Source: Halosolutus gelatinilyticus
Lineage (GTDB): Archaea; Halobacteriota; Halobacteria; Halobacteriales; Natrialbaceae
Assembly (NCBI RefSeq): GCF_023028105.1
Contig: NZ_CP095491.1
Location: 62,001-126,000 of the forward strand
Reading direction: 5' to 3'
DNA length: 64,000 nt
Position numbers and translations under genes: made by a program. Shown in pieces: positions 4,455-16,051 of the stretch. A model generated the notes under the pieces. The model saw only the letters and a list, made by a program, of their open reading frames with translations, had not been told where the DNA came from and made no database searches. The stretch's first letter is position 1. Each line of letters opens with the position of its first letter.

Positions 4455-4658
4455 GTGGGCTGGGAGTTTGCCGACGGCGTGGTGTCGATCGCGACCGAAA
4501 GTGATCGGACGGCGTGGGCGACGGTTTCGGACAACGTGGCAGGGATCGGTGAGAAGGGAGCGATCCACGTGCCGAAGACGACTCATCGGTCACCCCCCTC
4601 ACTTCTCGTGGAGTTCTCGGAATCTGAAACTGGTCGCTCACTGCCCGTACGAATGTAA
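4455..4658 (+). CDS. Uncertain short open frame or gene remnant
   Basis: A 67-codon frame from a GTG at 4455. Its first 45 codons (GWEFADGVVSIATE onward) read like protein, while the last 20 do not. Upstream is an AT-rich stretch with TTATAAATA at about 4400. No family is recognised. It lies between the ArsR operon and the decayed J-domain gene, so it may be a fragment. The rest of 4250-4975 shows no other supportable gene. Confidence 0.25.
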   Translation: MGWEFADGVVSIATESDRTAWATVSDNVAGIGEKGAIHVPKTTHRSPPSLLVEFSESETGRSLPVRM

Positions 4659-4974
4659 CAGGTCGCTGCTCTCAAAGACTGCTTTCTAAACCAAGTGACA
4701 CACCTTTCCCCGTCCCTTGTGTTGTTTTTACTGGCCCTGGAACGAAAGCCATTGGATGTCAGAATTATAAGGGGACGGCGTATCTTCAGGGCCATCCTTT
4801 GAAACCCTCCGTAGCCAAGAGCCTGCTTCGTTCTGCCTGAGGAGTGACCGCCGTCGGTTCGAACCTCTCGCTCCTGATTCTCGATCGCGTGCCGAACCTG
4901 CTCGTCGCTTGCGTGGTGGGCTGGATGGGCGATCGTCGTCCGAGTCACGACGTCGTACAGCTGGCTCGCCGGCA

Positions 4975-5553
4975 CGAACTCATCGAGCATCGCCTCCTCG
5001 GCCTCGATGACCCGCTGAAAGTATTCGCGATCTCCACCGAGGTCCGGGTGGTGGCTTTCTTCAGTCGCAAGCTGCGGTGCGAATCGTCTTGTCGTCCGCA
5101 TCCGGTTCGACGTCGAGAACGGCGCGCGGTGGAACCTCCGCGACGATCGCCTCATCTTCGGCCGGCGGCAGCCGCGCGTTCGCGCACTCCGACTCACCTG
5201 TGACGACCGGCCGCTGCTCCATCTTGCGCTTCTCGCGGACGTACAGCCCAACGGTGCGAACGTTATCTCGAAGCCGAGAGAATCGATCACAGGCCACCGC
5301 GTATTGCTCGCGCCCATACTCCAATGGAGAACGAATCCTGGATCATCCGGACTCGTGCGGGCGTACGGCCGTTGATCGCGTTGGCGCTGCTGCGCGTCGA
5401 ACGAGTATCGGAACTCGTCGACCTCGAGCTGCGACAGCTCTGCCTCGAGACCGTCGAACGCCTTCGACAGCGAGATGTCGAAGCTGTTGTTTCGAGTCCG
5501 ATCACCCGCAGATGTTCGCTCGAAGCGACAGGCCACTCCAGGCGTTCAGACAT
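4975..5553 (-). pseudogene. Decayed haloarchaeal J-domain (DnaJ-like) protein gene
   Basis: Pieces of one protein are spread over three frames of the same strand. The start (MSERLEW, ATG 5553) is in one frame. From about 5530 to 5324 a second frame carries a region ending in TSPDDPGFVLHW. From about 5324 to 5075 a third frame carries FSRLRDNVRTVGLYVREKRKME and ends near LDVEPDADDKTIRTAA. Then the second frame resumes with a J-domain HPD motif (HHPDLGG) and FQRVIEAEEAML. Joined, they match the haloarchaeal proteins that end in a C-terminal J domain. At least three frameshifts are needed, so it is probably inactive unless these are assembly errors. It overlaps the preceding zinc-finger frame by eight bases, the usual arrangement of the intact pair. 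Confidence 0.7.
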
Positions 5554-5788
5554 CCGCCTCACCCCCGTGACGGCCCGGCAACGTCTCCGGGTCGGGGATC
5601 ACGACGTCTTTCCCAGCGGCGGAGCCGCGGCTCAGTCGCCGGTAGGAATCGCACTCGCCGCAGCGGTGAGCGCGATCGCGATCGTCACCGAAAACGCGGC
5701 AGAACCGATCGCTGACATGGGCGCCACAGTGCTCACAGGTCGACGAATTACCGGCCGCTGGCCACGGGGCAATCGTCACGCCGACCAA
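5546..5788 (-). CDS. Small zinc-finger protein (DUF7563-like), possibly degenerate
   Basis: The core CEHCGAHVSDRF followed by CGEC gives a CxxC...CxxC zinc site like that of the short haloarchaeal DUF7563 family, which usually begins just before the first CxxC. Here no ATG stands at that position: the frame opens at a TTG (5788) or at a GTG nine bases further on. The C-terminal half also does not look like the family. The gene overlaps the J-domain pseudogene start by eight bases and may be decaying with it. Confidence 0.45.
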   Translation of the reverse strand: MVGVTIAPWPAAGNSSTCEHCGAHVSDRFCRVFGDDRDRAHRCGECDSYRRLSRGSAAGKDVVIPDPETLPGRHGGEADV

Positions 5789-5897
5789 CTCCGGGAAGTA
5801 TATCGACTATCCAGTAATATCTCGAAAGAGAGAATTGGATTTTTGGCAGGCTCAGGGTATGAGCGGCTAAGAGTTGAACACTTACAAAAATTTCGAG

Positions 5898-5968
5898 TGG
5901 GACCGCCGAGAATTGAACTCGGGTCCTACGGACCCCATCCGCAGAGGATACCACTACCCCACGGTCCC
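5898..5968 (-). tRNA. tRNA-Pro (anticodon GGG)
   Basis: A 71-base cloverleaf: acceptor GGGACCG pairs with CGGTCCC, discriminator A; the D arm has AGTGGTA; the anticodon stem TGCGG/CCGTA encloses A32-T-GGG-G-T38; the T arm is CCGAG-TTCAATT-CTCGG. The A32-U38 pair is typical of tRNA-Pro GGG. The CCA end is not encoded. A TATA-like CTTAAAC lies about 30 bases upstream (5994-6001). Confidence 0.95.
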
Positions 5969-6088: not shown

Positions 6089-6997
6089 TCAGACCACCAC
6101 GCGCTCAAGATCGACTGTGACACCGCCGTCGGCGTCCAGATCGCCAACTAGCGTCCCGAGACAGACCGCGGACTCGTTCGGCGTGTAACAGGCCACGAGG
6201 TCACCTCGATCGGCCGCGTCGTCGATCGAGAGTACGCCGGGTGCGTAGACGGGGGCGCCGGTGGCCACCTCGCGGGCGGCGCTCTCGGCGATCACGACAC
6301 CCGGAATCCCCTCGAGGATGCGTTCCGCGGGGTCGACAATCTCGCGCAGCGGCGCCGGATCGTCGTCCTCCAACCAGAACGCGAGCGCGTCGTAGAGTTC
6401 GTAGACCGTGTGGAGGTCCGTGTCGTCGAACGGGTCGGTCGCGGTCCGGCGAAGGTCGCCCATGTGCGCCCCGGTGCCGAGCGCCAACCCGAGGTCGTGA
6501 CAGAGCTTCCGGACGTACGTGCCGCTCTCGCACCGGATTCGAAGGAGTAGTCGCCGCTCGGCGGCCTCGAGTACGTCCAATTCGTAGATCTCTCGTACGC
6601 GCAGGCGGCGCGCGACCGCGCTCTTTCGCGGAGGCTTCTGGTAGATCGGGCCCTCGAACTCGGCGACGATCGAGTCAACGTCGTCCGGAACGGGACCGTG
6701 GCACTCGAGCACCGCGACGTACTCCTTCGTGCCCTCCAGAAACACCTGTGCGAGTCGGGTTGCGTCCCCGAGCATCACGGGGAGACAGCCGGTGACCTTC
6801 GGATCGAGCGTCCCGGCGTGGGCCGCCTGATCGATCGTCGCGTCGACTTCGCTCCGGGCGAGCGTCTCCGCGATGGCGTCGCGAAGCCACCCGCTCACCT
6901 GGTGGGAGGAGGGACCCGGCGGTTTGTCGAGATTGACGACGCCGAACGCGAGCAGATCGGCGGGCGATCGCTCCGCGGGTGGGCCACGCAACGCCAT
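6089..6997 (-). CDS. truB: Archaeal Cbf5/TruB-type pseudouridine synthase
   Basis: A 302-residue protein that converts uridine to pseudouridine in tRNA (U55) and, with box H/ACA guide RNAs, in rRNA. The catalytic motif HAGTLDPKVTG is at residues 60-70 with Asp65 as nucleophile. KPPGPSSHQ at 25-33 and the KPPRKSAVARR segment near 125 are conserved family blocks, and the last 80 residues form a PUA domain. Length matches archaeal Cbf5. Its start overlaps the cmk stop (ATGA), so translation is probably coupled; this cmk-cbf5 order is common in haloarchaea. Confidence 0.95.
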   Translation of the reverse strand: MALRGPPAERSPADLLAFGVVNLDKPPGPSSHQVSGWLRDAIAETLARSEVDATIDQAAHAGTLDPKVTGCLPVMLGDATRLAQVFLEGTKEYVAVLECHGPVPDDVDSIVAEFEGPIYQKPPRKSAVARRLRVREIYELDVLEAAERRLLLRIRCESGTYVRKLCHDLGLALGTGAHMGDLRRTATDPFDDTDLHTVYELYDALAFWLEDDDPAPLREIVDPAERILEGIPGVVIAESAAREVATGAPVYAPGVLSIDDAADRGDLVACYTPNESAVCLGTLVGDLDADGGVTVDLERVVV

Positions 6998-7575
6998 CAG
7001 AACTCGTAGTCGGCGCCAGTTACGGGCGCTTTCCCTTCGTCGCCGGTCGGATCGTACTCCTCGACCGCGGTGACGAGCATGTCCAGCACCGCGTCCGGCT
7101 CCCAGCGAGCCGTGTTCACGGAGAGATCGTAGATCGTCAGATCGCGGATGTCGATGCCGTAGTACTCCGCGTAGCGCTGGGCCTCGCTGGCCTCCCGCGC
7201 TTTCGTCTCCTCGGTCGCCCGAACGGGATCTTTGTCCTCGCGCTCGGCGATCCGCTCGCCGCGAACGTCCGCTGGGGCGTCGAGCCAGAACCGGAAGTCG
7301 GCGTGCTCGCCCGCGAGCCAGCCGGCGAGTCGCGACTCGAGCACCAGCCCGTCTTCCTCGACGGCGATCTCGTGCAGGCGCCGATCGAGGTCCCGATCGA
7401 TCTGGTCGTTCTCCTCCGCGAGTTTGTTGAACTCCAGGGGCGTGTAGCCGCGTTCGTCGGCGAGTTCGCGGAAGATATCACCGCCGCTCACGTGATCGAG
7501 ATCGAAGGCGTCGGCGAGCAACTCCGCGGTCGTGCTCTTCCCGCTTCCCGGCGGGCCGGAGACGGTGAGTAACAT
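6997..7575 (-). CDS. cmk: Cytidylate kinase
   Basis: A 192-residue archaeal-type (d)CMP kinase that phosphorylates CMP and dCMP in the cytoplasm. The P-loop GPPGSGKST is at residues 7-15. The NMP-binding segment includes [10 protein letters not shown] near 30-40, and a LID-like region with many Arg and Glu follows at about 125-150. It is first of a two-gene unit, with truB overlapping its stop. The next gene upstream on the same strand, the DUF106 membrane protein, ends 150 bases away. Confidence 0.95.
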
Positions 7576-15459: not shown

Positions 15460-15727
15460 CGGCCGGCCGCTACATCCGATTCCGAGATTTTGCGGCGTTT
15501 TGACCGAATTCAAGCGTCGGGTTCCCGCTTCACGTTCGTCGCTGCGTTACGCGTTCGCTGTCGAGTTTTACAGGTGCCGGAGGCGCCGATCGGTCGAGAG
15601 ACTGGTGCCCGCGACGGACGGTCCGACCTGGAGGGCGTTACCGACGGCTCGAGCGTGCGAGGCGGAGCGCGATCGGTGTCGCGACGCCGATCGTAGGCGC
15701 GACGAGCCGCGGTTCGTCGTCGGTCGG

Positions 15728-16051
15728 CTATCCGGCCCAGACCAGCGCGTACAGGAACGTGAACATGAAGTACAGGAGGAAGACGGAGACGGCCGCCTTG
15801 AGGTGGAACGTGAACAGTTCGTACTGTTCGTCGTCCTGCTCCGCCTCGAAGGCCTCGAGCTCCGCCTCGGTGCACTCCTCTGCGTGGACGGTTCCGACGT
15901 GGAGCGCGAGCTGGCGTTCGGTGCGGAACGGCCGATCGCAGTAGTGACAGCTGTATTCGGGCGTCTCGTCGGCGGGGACCTCGTACTCGACGTCAGTCAC
16001 CTGTTCGACGGCGGTCACCTCCTCGACGATCGCGGCCCGTTGGGCGGTCAT
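15728..16051 (-). CDS. Membrane-anchored C2H2 zinc-finger protein (DUF7410-like)
   Basis: A 107-residue protein with a classical zinc finger: Cys35, Cys38, His51 and His56 (YSCHYCDRPF...HVGTVH). An acidic linker and one C-terminal span at about 86-105 follow. The finger would face the cytoplasm if the tail is the only anchor. I recall similar proteins beside cox genes in haloarchaea, so a role in oxidase assembly or copper handling is a reasonable guess but not shown. It converges on the fused subunit I-III gene across about 270 bases that hold no clear gene. Confidence 0.75.
   Translation of the reverse strand: MTAQRAAIVEEVTAVEQVTDVEYEVPADETPEYSCHYCDRPFRTERQLALHVGTVHAEECTEAELEAFEAEQDDEQYELFTFHLKAAVSVFLLYFMFTFLYALVWAG

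Follow-up and report, generated by a model that had tools for sequence, protein, structure and literature searches.

The zinc-finger frame and the broken J-domain gene beside tRNA-Pro(GGG) in this haloarchaeon are, with a probability of about 0.9, what remains of the tRNA-side (attL) end of an integrative element of the SNJ2 type, related to pleolipoviruses, in which the optional J cargo has decayed. This reading is based on homology, gene order, tRNA linkage, att repeats in relatives and the state of the reading frames. The locus is mostly ordinary: elements of this kind, inserting at tRNA genes, are known, and this is the scar left by one. Less familiar, and mildly novel, is that pleolipovirus-like elements can carry a virus-type J protein as optional cargo at their attachment end. 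What looked like the loss of a chaperone gene would thereby become a readable scar of a past virus integration, and virus-type J proteins are placed in pleolipovirus-like elements. In the available portions of the literature searched, no report of a DnaJ or J protein in pleolipoviruses, nor of DUF7563, was found, and the words chaperone and zinc were not found in the accessible part of a paper on 164 new pleolipovirus genomes (PMC10599561).

The relic at tRNA-Pro(GGG) and its broken J gene

The window is the whole stretch of 64,000 nucleotides that was analyzed. On its minus strand, tRNA-Pro(GGG) is followed by a zinc finger, a broken J gene and T, so that both genes marking SNJ2-type elements (zinc finger and T) are present (Table 1). 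The DUF7563 frame scored 67.9 bits against PF24444, above the gathering cut-off of 27. The last recognizable element scrap was assigned by a 53-bp match to the own-genome copy at an intron-bearing tRNA, and an ArsR-like frame and a glyoxalase-like frame (names by eye) lie beyond it.

Table 1. Features of the element relic in the window
Feature	Position	Strand	Basis or remark
tRNA-Pro(GGG), presumed attachment site, attL side	5897..5968	-	ARAGORN; integration inferred from relatives
Gap between tRNA-Pro(GGG) and zinc finger	5789..5896	-	Length shared with several relatives at this tRNA, sequence alignable
DUF7563 zinc-finger frame, open; start TTG or inner GTG	5546..5788	-	76% identity to SNJ2 gp25
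J gene piece 1, MSERLEWP	5530..5553	-	Match to intact J proteins
J gene piece 2, second frame	about 5320..5524	-	Match to intact J proteins
J gene piece 3, third frame	about 5064..5309	-	Match to intact J proteins
J gene piece 4, HPD motif (HHPDLGG), second frame again	4979..about 5060	-	Match to intact J proteins
T protein (FVPASQLYDV...), in-frame fusion to J piece 4; SNJ2 gp24 homologue	about 4847..4978	-	
Last recognizable scrap: end of T gene and start of second small zinc finger	4576..4628	-	

No SNJ2-type tyrosine integrase and no pleolipovirus spike or ATPase gene were detected in the 20 kb downstream of the window copy. No ZF2-nuclease run remained, and no convincing tRNA-end repeat (attR) was present within 66 kb. 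Lacking integrase and attR, the copy was classed as a relic and not as a provirus. Since none of these parts, and no structural gene, is left in the window, we infer the integration of this copy from its relatives. An SNJ2-type element would have integrated at the 3' end of tRNA-Pro(GGG), and its integrase, attR, nuclease-like and structural genes would later have been lost. The J gene would have taken at least three frameshifts and become fused to T, with the zinc-finger frame staying open. The first-pass annotation had located the neighboring tRNA-Pro correctly but treated it as a mere landmark, and it would rather be the attachment site.

The same annotation had described a J gene lying in three frames of the minus strand, hit by at least three frameshifts, and had proposed to align its fragments to J proteins. 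Four intact J proteins from other species were used as queries against the window minus strand, and successive pieces of one protein matched across the three frames, which bears out the at least three frameshifts. DNA alignment to an intact homologue displayed short indels near 5525, 5311 and 5059. The J gene lacks its own stop codon and continues into T (compare locus L123). The HHPD residues are there in the broken frames, but the pieces gave no Pfam match to PF00226, while intact relatives do match. The zinc-finger stop overlaps the J gene start in the window, and an overlap of this kind, as previously claimed, was also seen in the four J-bearing loci that were translated.

The lack of an ATG in the zinc-finger frame was confirmed as well. 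Its interpretation as a sign of decay was ruled out, because SNJ2 gp25 starts with GTG and the frame looks intact; the window zinc finger is probably intact.

The Ka/Ks values of the two long J pieces against the two Natronococcus pandeyae genes were 0.15-0.21, and those of intact pairs were mostly 0.05-0.40 and up to 0.72. The J pieces fall in the range of intact pairs, and thus the J gene was constrained through most of its history and broke late. The same resemblance to intact genes, together with the fact that the indels are just three and all short, could also be taken to mean that J is intact in the cell and that its frameshifts arose in sequencing or assembly. We consider this improbable. 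Nearby frames of 302 aa (6089-6997) and 192 aa (6997-7575) are open, the indel sites are by eye not within long homopolymers, and other copies in the own genome and in related genomes are likewise decaying. The remainder of the element is gone too, which argues for decay over base-calling errors. The decay of J is therefore regarded as real, although sequencing errors may account for part of the three short indels.

Related copies in the same genome and in relatives

A DNA search of the own genome detected three more copies, all on contig C1, in which T adjoins the zinc finger directly and precisely the J segment is missing. One is located behind tRNA-Tyr and another behind tRNA-Pro(CGG); in the latter, the zinc finger is shortened. 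The third is located behind an intron-bearing tRNA, which by eye is tRNA-Arg(UCU) and which ARAGORN missed or called tRNA-Glu. The 3' end of tRNA-Tyr was repeated (14/14 nt) about 9 kb downstream, and that of the intron-bearing tRNA (13/13 nt) about 12 kb downstream. For tRNA-Pro(CGG), repeats of 21/21 nt and 13/13 nt were found at 0.14 kb and 4.6 kb downstream, respectively. A truncated SNJ2-type integrase lies directly before the tRNA-Tyr repeat, and a second, broken zinc-finger relic follows less than 0.3 kb past it, resembling a tandem array (C1:615535-615930). The 21/21-nt repeat at tRNA-Pro(CGG) copies the final 21 nt of the tRNA and lies ahead of the zinc finger (L011 6486-6506, C1:2359485-2359505), which would fit a small insertion at the same site. 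The possibility that the J-less own copies are exact-deletion derivatives was rejected, as SNJ2 and most relatives have no J and the J-less order is the usual one.

Other J family members in this genome are damaged or partial. Position C1:455113 holds one fragment and C1:3728324 several, while the member at C1:3726783 has an open frame, with its start matching in a different one. At L030 (C1:3521983-3522291), an open frame of 234 aa encodes several CxxC zinc-finger motifs and ends in a J domain; it is unrelated to the tRNA-side cassette.

The tRNA-Pro(GGG) site was compared in ten relatives, out of 40 genomes with a match. A zinc finger was located at +109/+110 of the tRNA in five of the ten, frameshifted in G001 and G021 and open in G002, G010 and G020. 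In G014 a more divergent zinc finger was located at about +217. No zinc finger was found near tRNA-Pro(GGG) in G024, G019, G006 and G023, and J was present at this site in none of the ten relatives inspected. In G023 the region from +112 to +132 (L186) contains a repeat of the tRNA 3' end (19 of 21 nt) with no zinc finger nearby, possibly the scar of another element.

It is conceivable, though rather unlikely, that the host keeps the tRNA-side zinc finger together with T, for example as immunity against related elements, and that J is dispensable and decays. The zinc-finger frame is open in the window and at two other own-genome sites, and the Ka/Ks between two open zinc fingers, those of the window and the tRNA-Tyr copy, was 0.054. 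In addition, the available part of PMC7911831 contains the proposal that the attP region helps to control the temperate state. However, G001 and G021 have frameshifted zinc fingers at tRNA-Pro(GGG), and the one at tRNA-Pro(CGG) is truncated. The Ka/Ks between copies mostly reflects time spent in live elements, and the loci were found via the zinc finger, so that its survival is biased.

Distribution of the zinc finger and the J protein

A zinc-finger alignment was scanned against 84,980 species genomes, and 47 loci were obtained. A tRNA on the same strand ended 0-400 bp upstream of the zinc finger in 42 of the 47 loci, against an expectation of 0.0055 per locus, and the downstream control gave 1/47. 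The tRNAs of these 42 loci were 21 Pro, 5 Met, 4 Arg, 4 Trp, 4 Ala, 2 Tyr, 1 Ile and 1 Gln. Among the five loci without a tRNA (L130, L138, L141, L147 and L148), L138 displayed a same-strand integrase immediately upstream. In L141 and L147, upstream integrase matches likewise had coordinates running with the zinc finger, and L130 had an integrase match on the other strand. Neither a tRNA nor an integrase match was found near the zinc finger of L148. This DUF7563 subfamily is thus a near-specific marker of tRNA-side integration sites, and therefore relics without an integrase can be found with it. A tRNA linkage of DUF7563 in general was rejected, since five more distant own-genome members (L013, L014, L015, L018 and L019) had no tRNA in their 3-kb loci. 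A scan of IMG/VR with the zinc finger confirmed no relative. PADLOC gave no match for J, the zinc finger, T or the nuclease-like protein, and weak matches for a neighboring SNJ2 protein.

T was found behind the zinc finger in 30 of the 47 loci. J was located exactly between the zinc finger and T in four of them (L102, L123, L127 and L128), all with an open J. The J protein was detected at E<=1e-15 in 32 of 125 family genomes, with 42 matches, of which 30 loci were inspected. Nine of these 30 displayed tRNA, zinc finger and J in order, four others lacked a zinc finger and had an SNJ2-type integrase in the 1.5-kb flank, and 17 had neither. Downstream of the nine ordered loci, a pleolipovirus-type ATPase was found in five (G023, G071, G145, G131 and G138); in the other four, the sequence stretch was short or the locus relic-like.

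The J family was also found in BJ1, HCTV-2 and bacterial phages, at 23 IMG/VR loci and with a PHROG match. The family thus belongs largely to viruses and mobile elements. The genome of the window encodes an intact canonical DnaJ of 401 aa elsewhere, so that no cellular chaperone function need be lost.

These distributions bear on the interpretation of the first-pass annotation, in which a conserved and usually intact zinc-finger/J pair pointed to the recent loss of a chaperone-type function. The description of the pair was too strong, as J stood behind the zinc finger in four of the 47 zinc-finger loci and a zinc finger lay within 1.5 kb of J in only nine of the 30 J loci. That a conserved cellular chaperone pair is being lost in this lineage is very unlikely. 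J is indeed broken in three frames and overlaps the DUF7563 gene as in J-bearing relatives. However, viruses and integrative elements carry the J family, which occurs in just 32 of the 125 family genomes and is missing from most equivalent loci, including the three own-genome copies and the same tRNA-Pro(GGG) in the ten relatives inspected. The canonical DnaJ is kept, and the tRNA linkage and the viral relatives contradict such a loss.

In intact J proteins, the N-terminal part is a conserved LEWP domain and the J domain lies at the C-terminus. The model of the LEWP domain (pLDDT 91) matched the HPF/RaiA and dsRBD folds weakly, with a best Z of 6.5 and an rmsd of 4.3 over 79 residues. The best Foldseek E was 0.03, and T7 Gp1.2 and YcaO were found at similar Z. 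The predicted structure thus gives a hint of HPF/RaiA or dsRNA-binding likeness, and no function is claimed for the domain. By analogy, J in live elements would most likely recruit the host DnaK (Hsp70) via its HPD motif, for viral replication, assembly or lysogeny control. A more far-reaching proposal, which we regard as doubtful, is that the exact junction of the attachment-side zinc finger and T in SNJ2-type elements is an exchangeable slot, in which genes are gained and lost at a shared overlapping stop/start motif. One cargo might be the virus-type J with an HPF- or dsRBD-like N-terminal domain, bringing host DnaK to ribosomes or viral RNA at establishment or induction, and the left-behind zinc finger might control related incoming elements.

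Comparison with known viruses and elements

BJ1 gp05, HCTV-2 gp5 and the J protein of bacterial phages resemble the element J in having an N-terminal LEWP domain and a C-terminal J domain. They differ from the window in coming from other viral backgrounds, and in BJ1 and HCTV-2 the small gene that precedes J had no Pfam match to DUF7563.

SNJ2 (NC_074646) is a temperate Natrinema virus of the genus Betapleolipovirus, and its integrases were reportedly studied by Wang et al. in 2018. It encodes the zinc finger (gp25), T (gp24), a second small zinc finger (gp23) and a nuclease-like protein (gp22, named by eye and without a Pfam match). The genes gp25-gp22 are located at the end of the record, adjoin the integrase across the circle and include no J. 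SNJ2 thus shares with the window a zinc finger followed by T beside the integrase end. In contrast to the window, which holds the tRNA-side end alone, it is a complete virus without J between zinc finger and T.

According to the available part of PMC7911831, the integrase, attP and a CxxC-motif gene are consecutive in pleolipoviruses including SNJ2 and HRPV-9, and the tRNA-side stretch before the CxxC gene contains the end of a gene split by integration. The pleolipoproviruses described there, such as Humcor2 and Harhisp1, are like the window integrated at a tRNA 3' end with the CxxC gene beside attP; unlike in the window, no J is reported in that part of the text. The first CxxC protein of Humcor2 gave no Pfam match. 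In HRPV-9 (L101, NC_048160), an unannotated DUF7563-type frame is located at about 15682-15876 on the minus strand, with gp28 annotated over it on the opposite strand.

The element of Halopiger goleimassiliensis (G023/L102) is complete and about 20 kb long. It is arranged as tRNA-Pro(CGG), zinc finger, intact J, T and second zinc finger, nuclease-like gene, a PHROG 'transcriptional regulator', ATPase, spike, HTH, integrase and attR, the latter being 21 of 23 nt of the tRNA end. Its spike matches those of the pleomorphic viruses HRPV-2, -3, -6, -9, -13 and Humcor2, and its integrase displays 67% identity to that of Humcor2 and 41% to that of SNJ2. It carries tRNA-Pro, zinc finger, J and T in the same order as the window, but differs in being complete, in its location at tRNA-Pro(CGG) and in its intact J.
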